Shown: positions 17,382 to 26,294 of the stretch, one piece after another
Position numbering within the stretch: the first letter of the stretch is position 1
Layout: every line of letters begins with the position of its first letter
Translations under genes and position numbers: made by a program
The notes under the pieces: model-generated
Told to the model about the DNA's origin: nothing
The model's input: only the letters and a program-made list of their open reading frames with translations
The model's database searches: none
IMG/VR virus record: IMGVR_UViG_3300008113_000659
Location: 1 to 26,294 of that record
Reading direction: 5' to 3' (one strand)
DNA: 26,294 nt
Source of the DNA: a virus

Positions 17382-18215
17382 ATGACAACACCACCTAAAG
17401 TTAACTACTTAAACAACAAAGATTTATTAGAAGAAATACATAAAAGTAAAGTAACTTACTGTAGCTTTACTCAACCAGAATATCATAGATATGATATTAT
17501 TCTTCCTAATATCGACAAAATTAATATTAGAACTATTGCTGAAGCTAAACGAGCACAGGCTAAAAGATTAAGCCAAAAAGCTTTTGAAGCTCGTAAAGCG
17601 GCTGGTGAAAAAATTAAAGCTAGTGAATGCGAAATTGATTACAAAAAAATCGGCAAGCAAGACTTAGTGTTTAGGATTATGACATTTGATCATATTCCAC
17701 TAAACAACACTAGAAAAAAGAATCCAAAAACAGTAGCTGACCATAGAGACAAAGTTAATTTTCCTCCTTTCCAACACTGGAAATTTGATGAAAACGATAT
17801 TTTAGTATGTGTGGGCAAAAGCCACTGGCGTGGACCAGTAGACAAAGGCAAATTTAGCAAGGATCACGGGCAAATTACCAACACACTAGCCCGTATGTAC
17901 ATTAAATTATGCGAAAGATATGCTACAAGAGGTAATGTTCGTGGGTATACTTACAACGATGAAATGCGAGGGCAGGCAATTTTACAGCTTACTCAAATTG
18001 GTTTACAGTTCGATGAAAGTAAATCGGACAATCCTTTTGCTTATTTTACTGCCGCCGTTACTAACAGTTTTGTTAGAATCATTAACATAGAAAAGCGCAA
18101 TCAAGTTATTCGTGACGATCTTCTAGAAATTAATGGTATGAATCCTAGTTATACTAGAATGGGAGAAGGCGAACATGCGGCTGCAATGAAAAGAAACGAA
18201 AGTTCTGATGATTGA
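17382..18215 (+). CDS. gp55: Late-transcription sigma factor gp55
   Basis: 277 residues against 185 in T4. The C-terminal half matches the gp55 family: NTLARMYIKLCERYATRG (about 167-184), the DEMRGQAILQL helix (193-203), and FAYFTAAVTNSFVRIINIEK (219-238), which corresponds to sigma region 2, with VIRDDLLEINGMNPSYTR at the end. gp55 replaces host sigma on RNA polymerase and directs it to TATAAATA late promoters. The added N-terminal and middle part (about 30-160) is Lys-rich. I see no obvious hydrophobic clamp-binding tail; the protein ends in NESSDD. It has no Shine-Dalgarno sequence and is probably translated from a leaderless mRNA. It opens the rightward unit that contains the gp47/46 nuclease. 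Confidence 0.93.
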   Translation: MTTPPKVNYLNNKDLLEEIHKSKVTYCSFTQPEYHRYDIILPNIDKINIRTIAEAKRAQAKRLSQKAFEARKAAGEKIKASECEIDYKKIGKQDLVFRIMTFDHIPLNNTRKKNPKTVADHRDKVNFPPFQHWKFDENDILVCVGKSHWRGPVDKGKFSKDHGQITNTLARMYIKLCERYATRGNVRGYTYNDEMRGQAILQLTQIGLQFDESKSDNPFAYFTAAVTNSFVRIINIEKRNQVIRDDLLEINGMNPSYTRMGEGEHAAAMKRNESSDD

Positions 18216-22116: not shown

Positions 22117-23457
22117 ATGAAAGTTTACGAAGTTCTCGAGAAAAAACAAATTAATGAAGCACTTCCTATTATTGGGGGTATTGGATTAGGTGGAATTTTG
22201 ACTGCTATCTCTATTGGAATAGCAGCATGGAGTGCCTATGATGTATATAATTTTATTAAGAAATATAACGAGGATCCTGAAAAAATCACTGATGAGGAAT
22301 GGGAAGAACTTTTTATAGATGCTATACTGATGTTTACTCCTGGATTTTTAAAATTAGGCAGAGCAGGTGTAGCAAAAATAGTTCCAAAAGCTGCTAAGAC
22401 TAAAGGCGGCAAGTGGTTAAGAAGTAAGATTAACAAAAGATATGCAGAAGTAACTGCAAAAAGAGCTGCTAGAGGCAAATACAGTATTAAAGGTCTTACA
22501 GGCAAACAAAGAACTGAAATGTTGGCCAAACGTGCAGCAGCTTCAAAAACAGCCGCGGCAGCAGGTGCAGCAGCATTAAGTGCAAATGCCGCTGTAGCAG
22601 GATTAATCCGAACTCTTGGTCTAGGTGCAGTTATTGGAAATTATCTAATACAGATTGCAGCTATTGAAGAAGATTTTGTAGAGTTGCGAGATTCGTTGAG
22701 TTCCGGAAAAGAAGTTTCAGAAGATAACATTTTTAAAGGCATGTCATTTGAAGAAGCTAAGGAACAAGGTCAAAACTTGCGTCAAGACCTACTAGGAGAA
22801 GCAGCCCTACAAATGGTTGGACTAGGATTAGCAGGTAGAATTATAGGAGCTTTAGGTAAATTTGCAAACCTATTTGGCATTATAGGGCAAGTGTTTGGCA
22901 GACCGTTGCAGTTTGCAGGATGGCTAGCTACTTTAGGCAGTGGTGCAAAAATGACTGCGGTAAAGACTGCTCTTACAGCATGGTTTAGCACAGAGTCAGG
23001 TCAAGAATGGCTTAAACAATTTGCAATTGGGTTAGCATTGATATCTGCAGGTCAGTGGGCTAAGTCTAACCTAGGTCCTATTATGAGCTGGTCTGCAGAT
23101 ATTATTGTTAAACTGTTAGACGAGGCATTAGCATATATTTCAGAAAAAACAGGTATACCTTTAAGTGTTCCTGATGCTGCAAAGTCTCCATTTTCGCCTA
23201 TATCTCCAGATCAAGCTACTAAGGATGTAGAAGATGAAAGAGCAGCAAATGTTAAATTTGTAGGAGGTGTTCCTGCTACTACAGGTGACGGCTATCTACG
23301 AAATGATAGAGCATTTTGGCTTACACCTAATTTAGGTATTATAGCAAGACGAAATGCAAATAATAATAAACCTCATCCCTTACAAGGTTTACCGTTAAAT
23401 CCTAAATTAACATACCCTAGTGATCTAATGGCTAAAGTTGGATTTACACCTAGTTAA
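22117..23457 (+). CDS. Probable packaged internal head protein, hydrophobic, unknown function
   Basis: 446 residues. The N-terminus MKVYEVLEKKQINE|ALPI resembles the T4 capsid-targeting peptide of internal proteins (MKTYQEFIAEA), and I12-N-E14|A15 fits the (I/L)-x-E cut site of the T4 prohead protease. Two more matches are L226-G-E|A and L334-D-E|A. After the first site comes a glycine-rich hydrophobic stretch (15-48), then an acidic helix (NEDPEKITDEEWEE), a basic Ala-rich region (100-165), further hydrophobic segments (about 160-185, 232-275, 302-312) and a Pro-rich tail. It may be ejected with the DNA and act at the host membrane. This is inference; no enzyme motif is visible. The stop overlaps the convergent minus-strand stop within TTAA. 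No upstream in-frame start exists after the TAG at 22069. Confidence 0.75.
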   Translation: MKVYEVLEKKQINEALPIIGGIGLGGILTAISIGIAAWSAYDVYNFIKKYNEDPEKITDEEWEELFIDAILMFTPGFLKLGRAGVAKIVPKAAKTKGGKWLRSKINKRYAEVTAKRAARGKYSIKGLTGKQRTEMLAKRAAASKTAAAAGAAALSANAAVAGLIRTLGLGAVIGNYLIQIAAIEEDFVELRDSLSSGKEVSEDNIFKGMSFEEAKEQGQNLRQDLLGEAALQMVGLGLAGRIIGALGKFANLFGIIGQVFGRPLQFAGWLATLGSGAKMTAVKTALTAWFSTESGQEWLKQFAIGLALISAGQWAKSNLGPIMSWSADIIVKLLDEALAYISEKTGIPLSVPDAAKSPFSPISPDQATKDVEDERAANVKFVGGVPATTGDGYLRNDRAFWLTPNLGIIARRNANNNKPHPLQGLPLNPKLTYPSDLMAKVGFTPS

Positions 23458-23675
23458 AGAAAATTCATACCGCTTTTCTTTGTAGCTTCGATATTTTCTT
23501 TGATAATATGATTTAAGATCATTCTGTCTTCGTAAGAGTACAGGTAAAATAGATCTTTGCTATCTACTCCGCCTCGCATATACCAACTAATTCTAAAAAT
23601 CTCGTCTTTTAAATTTTTGGCGTCTTGTTCTAGATTTTTTACAGTGTTTTCAATCTCATCTGCGGAGAGGAACAA
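23454..23675 (-). CDS. Small hub-assembly protein/frameshift extension of gp26 (gp51-like position)
   Basis: 73 residues if started at the TTG at 23675; the frame is open up to the gp26 slippery site at 23687. It lacks an ATG before residue 33, and the only Shine-Dalgarno-like match (AAGG) is too close to the TTG. It is therefore probably made mainly as a -1 frameshift extension of gp26. The content is helical: FLSADEIENTVKNLEQDAK, a conserved-looking RISWYMRGGV at 28-37, and IIKENIEATKKSG. I associate this short protein downstream of gp26 with what marine T4-like phages annotate as gp51 (hub assembly), but the identification is by position and weak memory. The stop overlaps the convergent gene by four bases. 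Confidence 0.7.
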   Translation of the reverse strand: MFLSADEIENTVKNLEQDAKNLKDEIFRISWYMRGGVDSKDLFYLYSYEDRMILNHIIKENIEATKKSGMNFL

Positions 23676-23680
23676 GAGCC

Positions 23681-24505
23681 TTATGCGAAAAAATTACTTT
23701 GATCTACCTGTACTGTAATAGAATTTTCTTTACCGCATGAAGAACACATAACGGGTTGTGATGGAATATTCCAAGTTTCTTTATTTTGTTCTAATTTTTC
23801 TTTGATAATTTTGTAATTTTCTCTGTCAGTATTACGCAAATATTCTTCAATAAATGCTTTGTCAGTGACCATAACACCGTCAGCTTGAACATTTTCAATA
23901 CTGGTTAAGAATAATTGTAATTGTAACTCTGAAAGAGTTTTATAAATCTCATCAATTTGTTTTTGTCTTTGATCTTCTGGAAGTTCACCGGTTTGATACA
24001 ATGTTTTTTGTAATTTAAAGTTTTCAATACTGAAATAGGTCATTTCTTCGTATTGTAAAGGTCGTACACTAATAGTTAACCCTTCCATGACTTGAATTTG
24101 ACTAACATACTTTAAAGAACTAAAGTAATCGATTAACTTAGTAAGTTCAATTTCGTATTCATTTTCTGCATCGCAATGCTTACAGTTTTGCGATATAGTC
24201 ATTTTTTCACCAAATGTTGCAATTCTAATTGCAACTAATAAAGCATCTATATCGATAGTAGGCATTAACTTAGCATTTGTTACATAAGGACAGCAACTTT
24301 CAATAACTTTAGCAGTGGCTTCTCCGCTGAATAAAGCATCTGGAGTTTTCATTATGATTTCATCCATACCACTCATGGCAAAAATAGGAACATTACTCCA
24401 GTCTCCTTGAAGAGCACCAGGTTCGTAATAAATGCCCTTACTTGGTAATGAGACATAGAGTTTTGGTTGTCTAAAAAATCTTTGTAACGGGTTATTTCCT
24501 GTCAT
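23681..24505 (-). CDS. gp26: Baseplate hub protein gp26 (T4 baseplate family)
   Basis: 274 residues. Typical features are LPSKGIYYEPG (20-30), MSGMDEIIMKTPDALFSGEA (44-63), a cysteine pair C108-K-H-C111 and a second pair C254-S-S-C257, which together form a likely zinc ribbon, and the helical middle (PLQYEEMTYFSIENFK). In T4, gp26 is needed to assemble the central hub. The ATG is 27 bases downstream of a perfect late promoter. The last codons carry a slippery run that joins the next frame. The gene pair lies beside the probable tape-measure gene, the classic position for tail-assembly chaperones, so gp26 may be a non-structural assembly factor here. Confidence 0.9.
   Translation of the reverse strand: MTGNNPLQRFFRQPKLYVSLPSKGIYYEPGALQGDWSNVPIFAMSGMDEIIMKTPDALFSGEATAKVIESCCPYVTNAKLMPTIDIDALLVAIRIATFGEKMTISQNCKHCDAENEYEIELTKLIDYFSSLKYVSQIQVMEGLTISVRPLQYEEMTYFSIENFKLQKTLYQTGELPEDQRQKQIDEIYKTLSELQLQLFLTSIENVQADGVMVTDKAFIEEYLRNTDRENYKIIKEKLEQNKETWNIPSQPVMCSSCGKENSITVQVDQSNFFA
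23687..23693 (-). promoter_or_regulatory. Putative -1 ribosomal frameshift site (T_TTT_TTC)
   Basis: At the end of gp26 the zero-frame codons are AAT TTT TTC GCA TAA. The heptamer T TTT TTC fits the X_XXY_YYZ rule, and slipping back one base allows near-perfect re-pairing (TTT TTT). The -1 frame then reads CGC ATA AGG CTC TTG and runs without a stop through the 73-residue frame, giving a predicted fusion of 350 residues. An AGGT about 13 bases upstream could act as a stimulatory Shine-Dalgarno element. Confidence 0.6.
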
Positions 24506-24531: not shown

Positions 24532-24539
24532 TATTTATA
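24532..24539 (-). promoter_or_regulatory. Late promoter of gp26 (perfect TATAAATA)
   Basis: A complete match to the T4 late consensus on the minus strand, with expected +1 near 24526, about 20 bases before the gp26 ATG. It is the best late promoter in the window. Confidence 0.75.
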
Positions 24540-24564: not shown

Positions 24565-26294
24565 ATGTCATTAACTACAGCAGATGCTCAACTTATTGCA
24601 AGTGAGATAGCAAAATCTTTAAAAATAGCAGGAGTTACCGGAACAGGCGGTAAAGGCAGTAGCACCGGTCCTGCTCCAGGCTCATCTGGATCTTCTATAG
24701 GCGATTTAACTAAATCAGGTAAAGGACTAACAGACGGTTTTGACACTCTTAAAGATGTTGTAGGTCAAGCAAAAATACAATATACAAATCTTTCACAAGT
24801 TATCCAGGATAATCTTAATACATGGAGAGATTTAAGCAAGGTAGGTGCTAGTTTTAGCAATGATATTGTTGCAATGCGTGCCGCCGCCGCTGGCGCACGA
24901 CTAGACGTTGGAGAATTTGCAGGAGTTATTAAAGAAAATTCTGCTTCAATGACAGGCTTTGGTGGCGATGTTAGTAAAGGTGCAGAAAATTTTGCCAAAG
25001 CTAGCAAAAGAATGTTTGACGAACTTGGTCCAGTTACTGATCAACTTCGTCAAATGGGATACACAAACAAAGATCTCAATGATATTTTAGCTCTAACTAA
25101 TGTATCATCAAGAGCAAAATTTGCAGACGATGACTCAAGAAGTAAAGCATTAACTGAAAACGCCACTGCTCTAGCTAGAGAAATGGACTTAATGGCCAAA
25201 CTCACTGGTAAGACTAGAGAAGAACAAATGGCACAGATGCGTAAAAATAATGCAGACATGGCATTCGAAGCTGCTCTAAGAGCTAAAATGATGGAGATTG
25301 ATGATCCAGCTAAACGAGCAGAGTTTGAAAAGAACGCTAGAGCACAGTTAGCAGAGGCACAGAATCGAGGCCAGGGGCAGATGTTTAAAGAAGTATTTGC
25401 TACCGGACAGATACTGAGTAAAGAAGCTGCACAACAAGCATCTCTAATGGGAGAACAGTCTCGAAATACCATGCGAGCTGCTCAAGTCAGTGCTAATACT
25501 CAAATGGATAGTGCTGAAAGAGAAAAGCAAGCAACTGATGCTCAAATAGCAGCTAGAAGTGCATTTAATAACGACATGCAAAACAAACAAGTCCTGTTAA
25601 TGGCTTCAATGGGAGACACATCTGGTGCAGTTGGTAAAACATTTAGAGATAGCATGTCAGCTCAAATGGATTATCAAAGAGGTCTTGAAGGAGTTGCTGC
25701 TGCAAATAAATTAGATCTAAGTGATAAAGCACAATTAGCAAAAGCTCAGCAATTATATAGAGAACAAGCAGAAAAAGGTCAACAGGGTGTTAAAGAAAAC
25801 GGTGACCAAACTAATGCTGCTACTAAAGCTATAATTAATTTAGGTGCTAGAACTGCAGATGTTGAAAGTGCATTCTTTAACAAATTAGTTGTACCTCTTA
25901 ACGAAAAAGTTAATCCAGCATTGACTAAACTTGCTGACGGTGCATTAGGTGCTACTAAAGTTGGTACTCAAGAAACATTTGTTCAAGGCATTGAAAAACA
26001 ATTAGAAAAAGGATTTTCAGGAGCAAAAGATGCAGCTGGTCCTATAGCAGGATTAGGAAAAGCAGCATCAACTGCTGCTGATGCTCTATTAAAATTAGCA
26101 GGAATTCAACCAGCAGCTGGAGGACAACCGGCAGCACAAGCACCGAGAAGAAATACTGGTAGTTTAGGAGCTACAGGTAACCTGTTTGAAAATTTTGGAG
26201 AAGGTACACTAGTAGAATTACATGGCCTAGAAAGTGTCATGCGTCCAGATGATTTAAAGAAAGTTGTACAGTCATCAATGAGTGGCATGACTAG
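24565..26294 (+). CDS. Probable tail tape-measure protein (gp29-like), 3' end outside window
   Basis: 576 codons are visible before the right edge, open in one frame. The N-terminus MSLTTADAQLIASEIAKSL is followed by a Gly/Ser/Pro-rich linker (about 25-50), a long helical Ala/Gln/Lys/Glu-rich region (60-420) with little hydrophobic structure, then Ala/Gly-rich segments. Near the visible end, residues about 539-566 contain FENFGEGTLVELHGLESV, matching the GTxxxLHGxEAV ending common to tape-measure proteins of tailed phages. T4 gp29 is 590 residues. Tape-measure proteins set tail length and leave with the DNA. Position next to gp26 on the opposite strand supports the tail role. A weak GGAA site precedes the ATG. 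Gene 29 identity is inferred, not proven. Confidence 0.75.
   Translation, partial: MSLTTADAQLIASEIAKSLKIAGVTGTGGKGSSTGPAPGSSGSSIGDLTKSGKGLTDGFDTLKDVVGQAKIQYTNLSQVIQDNLNTWRDLSKVGASFSNDIVAMRAAAAGARLDVGEFAGVIKENSASMTGFGGDVSKGAENFAKASKRMFDELGPVTDQLRQMGYTNKDLNDILALTNVSSRAKFADDDSRSKALTENATALAREMDLMAKLTGKTREEQMAQMRKNNADMAFEAALRAKMMEIDDPAKRAEFEKNARAQLAEAQNRGQGQMFKEVFATGQILSKEAAQQASLMGEQSRNTMRAAQVSANTQMDSAEREKQATDAQIAARSAFNNDMQNKQVLLMASMGDTSGAVGKTFRDSMSAQMDYQRGLEGVAAANKLDLSDKAQLAKAQQLYREQAEKGQQGVKENGDQTNAATKAIINLGARTADVESAFFNKLVVPLNEKVNPALTKLADGALGATKVGTQETFVQGIEKQLEKGFSGAKDAAGPIAGLGKAASTAADALLKLAGIQPAAGGQPAAQAPRRNTGSLGATGNLFENFGEGTLVELHGLESVMRPDDLKKVVQSSMSGMT

Follow-up and report, generated by a model that had tools for sequence, protein, structure and literature searches.

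The minus strand of the window, by which we mean the whole 26,294-nucleotide stretch analysed (IMG/VR record IMGVR_UViG_3300008113_000659), carries a gp26-type gene that runs directly into a small open reading frame in the -1 frame. Are these two genes, or is this one gene from which a short and a long tail assembly chaperone (TAC) are made, as in phage lambda? An earlier note on this DNA had proposed the second reading from the letters alone. From the comparison with relatives reported here, we consider it very likely that the locus encodes a putative tail assembly chaperone, two forms of which would be produced from a single gene through a -1 frameshift.

The gp26-type gene and its slippery site

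The 274-aa ORF matches the Pfam family PF12322 (T4_baseplate) with an E-value of 8.3e-17 and 62 bits (curated cut-off 24.5), and its PHROG match is phrog_150, baseplate hub (E-value 7e-19). Consistent with these assignments, a fold search of BFVD with the model of the protein returned T4-like baseplate hub assembly proteins (E-value 8e-22). The same model also resembles predicted proteins of 440–550 aa in BFVD from the phages Erwinia Special G, Ralstonia RP12 and Ralstonia RSF1, and Achromobacter Motura; going by the models, these may be unrecognized (long-form) chaperones.

The gene ends in AGT AAT TTT TTC GCA TAA. As the earlier note had pointed out, the heptamer T_TTT_TTC within this end (23693–23687, minus strand) is in the correct phase for slippage, and the -1 frame passes from it into the small frame, staying open to a stop at 23456–23454 (minus strand). 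The predicted fusion is 350 aa long, as the note had calculated, with the junction SNFFRIRLLFLSADEIE. The length of 73 residues given there for the small frame is right when counted from a TTG codon, whereas 79 codons separate the heptamer from the stop. Searched alone, the window's small frame has no family match in Pfam or PHROG. In a window this rich in AT, T_TTT_TTC turns up often on its own, and because such T-runs are frequent, conservation is the test of chance.

Table 1. Coordinates of the putative chaperone locus and of neighbouring features in the window.
Feature	Position	Strand	Remark
TAC-N, gp26-type gene, 274 aa, putative short chaperone	23681..24505	-	PF12322, phrog_150
-1 slippery heptamer T_TTT_TTC	23687..23693	-	phase right for tandem -1 slippage
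0-frame stop TAA, two codons past heptamer	23681..23683	-	
-1 frame TAC-C domain, 79 codons plus stop, FFRIRLLFL...WYMRGG...	23454..23693	-	access by -1 shift proposed
5' arm of predicted stimulatory stem, GGCTCTTGTTC	23670..23680	-	begins 6 nt past heptamer
3' arm of predicted stem, GAACAAGACGCC	23619..23630	-	
TATAAATA, T4-type late-promoter-like element, 26 nt before gp26 start	24532..24539	-	sole match in window
Divergent neighbour ORF, cut by window end, probable tape-measure/hub protein	24565..26294	+	RaK2, CBB equivalents

Conservation of the heptamer and of the -1 frame

A search of IMG/VR yielded 80 relatives of 42–100 per cent identity, 78 of them with a complete 3' end. To these metagenomic jumbo loci were added 13 isolate jumbo phages (RaK2, Atu_ph07, CBB, PBECO4, Phosso, Paride, SCTP-2, Vibrio 2.275, XacN1, Munch, CM1, XaC1 and PA5oct) and 80 cyanophage-type loci collected with S-PM2 gp26 as the query, giving 171 loci with complete 3' ends in 76 clusters (80 per cent sequence identity). 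The earlier note had placed the relatives among marine T4-like phages, which is true of the cyanophage-type loci but leaves out the RaK2-like jumbo phages.

An in-frame T_TTT_TT(C/T) is present at the 3' end of gp26 in every one of the 171 loci and 76 clusters, and in 74 of the clusters it is exactly T_TTT_TTC. Specifically, TTTTTTCG stands in phase at the heptamer site in all 78 metagenomic jumbo relatives whose 3' end is complete, all 13 isolate jumbo phages have T_TTT_TT(C/T), and TTTTTTC is found in 80/80 cyanophage-type loci. Conservation of the slippery run, which had been set beforehand as a check, is therefore complete, and the -1 domain is open in all 171 loci as well. For comparison, elsewhere in the gp26-type genes this class of heptamer encodes only 2 of 41 Phe-Phe pairs, and in the remaining ORFs of these loci 41 of 215; set against 76/76 clusters, these controls rule out a chance T-run. 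The heptamer also persists in loci that have Leu, His, Gln or Tyr in place of Arg as the following residue, so a protein constraint on FFR alone is not a sufficient explanation.

Among relatives, the 0-frame stop falls 2, 4 or 5 codons past the heptamer, while the length of the -1 frame stays constant: all complete metagenomic jumbo loci have exactly 79 codons. The -1 frame has a pN/pS of 0.34 and favours third-position substitutions, and the remaining two frames over the C domain contain 3–14 stops. By these sequence measures, the downstream domain is under protein selection. Its invariant residues include FFR, W37, MRG and DR, and its AlphaFold model consists of four helices (mean pLDDT 89). 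Neither the jumbo TAC-N nor the C domain gave a PDB match by sequence or fold, an absence that is not proof of a different fold; lacking such a match, the putative chaperone fold cannot be linked to that of solved TACs.

Start codons and RNA context

The best-surviving alternative is that the two frames are separate genes, translation of the small one beginning independently, through coupling or reinitiation close to the gp26 stop, and the T-run being incidental. The window offers this explanation a single early start-like codon, a TTG six codons past the heptamer site with TAAGG 3 nt upstream, which is too close for a good SD; the first ATG does not come before codon 39. The earlier note had read the small frame in the same way, as having no nearby ATG and a poor ribosome site. 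In the window's own subgroup, weak separate initiation at TTG/TAAGG possibly plays a small role. Further points for separate genes are an ATG a few codons into the frame in several isolates and most cyanophages (within the first 25 codons in 8 of 12 isolate clusters and 24 of 25 cyanophage clusters) and the separate genes that databases annotate there, although the cyanophage ATGs mostly lack an SD. In metagenomic jumbo phages, however, 28 of 36 clusters have no ATG in the first 25 codons, and 20 of 36 have no ATG, GTG or TTG there, which excludes a separate start for more than half of the jumbo relatives; where start-like codons do occur in jumbo relatives, they differ in position and are mostly without an SD. 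An ATG-less -1 frame, the other check set in advance, is accordingly the rule among these jumbo clusters and fails in most cyanophages. Moreover, two separate genes would explain neither a T-run kept in 76/76 clusters nor the -1 frame residues FFR kept between the heptamer and the candidate starts. We regard separate genes as very unlikely.

The annotated phage records examined contain no joined CDS for the gene pair. No forward gene is annotated over the -1 domain in RaK2 (L083, 6862–7226), Paride (L088, after 3849) and PA5oct (L095, after 3858).

Downstream of the slippery site, the window's stem has a predicted folding energy of -15.2 kcal/mol (computed on the identical sequence of locus L001). 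In a sister jumbo subgroup (23 sequences), a 12-bp stem likewise begins 6 nt past the heptamer, with 94 per cent of cells paired. This stem covaries: 20 cells show double changes compared to 7.6 in shuffles, and none of 500 shuffles reached 20, while in slid controls pairing goes down to 17–52 per cent (the shuffles leave relatedness in, and the slid control preserves it). Relative to dinucleotide shuffles, the downstream sequences are more stable when folded, with a mean z of -2.3 in metagenomic jumbo phages, -1.8 in isolates and -2.2 in cyanophages. Across all cyanophages, RNAalifold found no single consensus stem, probably because the pairs differ from subgroup to subgroup; taken one by one, most hairpins are stable. 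Cyanophage-type loci (L101–L180) additionally carry an SD-like GAGG/AAGG approximately 8–11 nt upstream of the heptamer, and the spacing resembles that of dnaX-type stimulators. An upstream SD-like stimulator was sought in the jumbo group and none was seen.

The phase of the site and its stem also bear on a second alternative, in which the long form comes from transcriptional slippage on the T-run and not from a ribosomal slip. Six T in a row may slip at a low rate during transcription, and a single extra base would be enough to produce this fusion. However, the run remains six T followed by C in 74 of 76 clusters, with no growth to longer runs prone to polymerase slippage, the heptamer lies in the exact phase for a tandem slip, and the downstream stem, placed at ribosomal spacing, covaries. 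Transcriptional slippage is, in our assessment, likewise very unlikely. The probability that a homopolymer assembly or sequencing error split one gene in two is negligible: a T6 run is a typical site of such errors, but the split is shared by 171 loci that come from isolates as well as independent metagenomes, and the distance to the 0-frame stop differs among them.

Under -1 frameshifting by the ribosome, the reading we prefer, gp26 would serve as TAC-N, the short chaperone, and the frameshifted protein as its long counterpart TAC-NC, by analogy with lambda G/GT. The majority of ribosomes would end at the TAA and release the 274-aa TAC-N. We infer that shifting does occur here, in a minority of ribosomes, which would slip by -1 on U_UUU_UUC with both tRNA-Phe re-pairing (UUU/UUC to UUU/UUU), probably assisted by the stem-loop 6 nt downstream, and would go on to make the 350-aa TAC-NC with its terminal four-helix domain. 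In lambda, gpG and its -1 product gpGT bind the tape measure, recruit the tube protein and are both absent from the virion (PMC5009743). By the same analogy, many TAC-N and few TAC-NC molecules would coat the tape-measure protein, the C domain would recruit tube subunits, and both forms would then leave.

The gp26-type gene adjoins a tape-measure candidate across a short gap, but the two are divergent and the gene is not upstream of the candidate. This large ORF has no Pfam or PHROG match; in RaK2, the annotation of its counterpart notes similarity to a tape measure protein. In the mass spectrometry (MS) table of CBB virions, the equivalent of the divergent ORF (CBB_251) is represented by 29 peptides, and the gp26 homologue CBB_250 and CBB_249 are not listed, a non-detection in one relative and one data set (PMC5259590). 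This pattern, for which CBB numbering was matched via the portal gene (CBB_252/gp252), is what would be expected of a chaperone not retained in the mature virion. The position of TATAAATA as a late promoter core is suggestive only, given that approximately five matches are expected by chance.

T4 gp26 and gp51, and known frameshifted chaperones

PF12322 matches both gp26 (E-value 8e-65) and gp51 (E-value 1.8e-53) of T4, and has one match each in S-PM2 and RaK2. T4 gp51 is the longer protein; over its last 50 residues it shows homology to the cyanophage -1 domain (hhalign probability 95 per cent, E-value 2e-8). Therefore, the short and long forms in T4 are two genes. Additionally, the small frame of S-PM2 is annotated as gp51. 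The suggestion in the earlier note that gp26 plus a gp51-like frame make up the T4-like equivalent of a frameshifted chaperone pair is, in substance, borne out. The jumbo -1 domain and the T4 gp51 profile are alike in general layout, and the match is not significant; against the cyanophage domain profile, the jumbo C domain does not match significantly, and the domain of the isolate jumbo phages does so weakly.

In contrast to the single gene of the window, T4 has two, with gp51 as the fused long form, and its gp26 encodes the FF pair as TTC TTT without a heptamer. Other gp26 genes of the T4 group (L082, 5803–6429; L181–L190) often keep the pair in this non-slippery form, which is likely a relic of a lost frameshift site. 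A single gene with a T6 site is found in Aeh1, ValKK3, phiM7, Mendera, LG08, Melnitz-1 and RHph_I1_9. The abstract of Vladimirov and colleagues is said to describe frameshifting as conserved in several T4-like groups. Vibrio phage K413 (L196) and Serratia phage Kevin (L199, Ackermannviridae) have an open, C-domain-like -1 frame without T6 (CACTTTTC and GGTTTTC, respectively), and likely use another slip site.

The S-PM2-type cyanophage pair of gp26 and small 'gp51' resembles the window in its identical heptamer and open -1 domain (80/80), and adjoins a large, probably tape-measure gene. The cyanophage C domain is shorter than that of the jumbo phages and distinct from it, and the SD-like GAGG/AAGG of the cyanophages is missing in the jumbo group. 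In lambda, a single gene close to the tape-measure gene yields gpG and its -1 extended form gpGT, an arrangement like the one proposed for the window. The lambda heptamer is G_GGA_AAG, whereas the window has a U-run; no homology between the two was detected, and the window gene, unlike that of lambda, is divergent from its tape-measure candidate. The TAC of Vandenendeviridae/Andersonviridae (phage Adele) also has a -1 extension at a T-rich site ending TAC-N, with a GTTTTT motif and in phage families other than that of the window (PMC12846349).

A frameshift-made T4-like chaperone is a known principle and not new, as can be seen from papers that cite Vladimirov et al. 2022. T4-like chaperone genes were identified in that study (Vladimirov, Gautam, and Davidson 2022, Virology 566:9–15; via PMC10274946, PMC12846349). 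The PRFect paper (PMC10274946) cites it for the occurrence, in some T4-like phages, of a short and a fused long copy, and the phage Adele paper (PMC12846349) for known poly-T -1 signals in T4-like TAC-N genes. The T4-like TAC-N/TAC-NC shares PF12322 and the logic of a poly-T -1 site with the window. In the 2016 review by Atkins, T4 was the exception to the conserved chaperone frameshift (PMC5009743); the remark in the earlier note that such phages are not the usual example held at that date, but T4-like phages have since been covered by Vladimirov et al. 2022, to judge from the citing papers.

A full-text search found no paper on a frameshift chaperone in RaK2-like jumbo phages, with Vladimirov et al. 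2022 judged via citing papers. As far as could be checked, and within that same view of the 2022 study, what is new is the RaK2-like jumbo clade as members and the jumbo stem-loop. A wider hypothesis, to which we give an even chance, is that RaK2-like jumbo phages use an undescribed composite signal, unlike that of the cyanophages, in which U_UUU_UUC is combined with a covarying stem-loop starting 6 nt past it and an upstream SD is missing, and that the ancestor of the T4 superfamily frameshifted, the T4 group having swapped the frameshift for a gene duplication (gp26 and gp51) of which the FF pair is a relic. With the locus correctly annotated, RaK2-like jumbo phages gain a candidate for their missing tail chaperone, and the T4 case becomes testable as a frameshift replaced by gene duplication.

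Elsewhere in the window, the ORF at 17382–18215 occupies the place that gp55, the late sigma factor, has in RaK2, next to the gp47-gp46 block.
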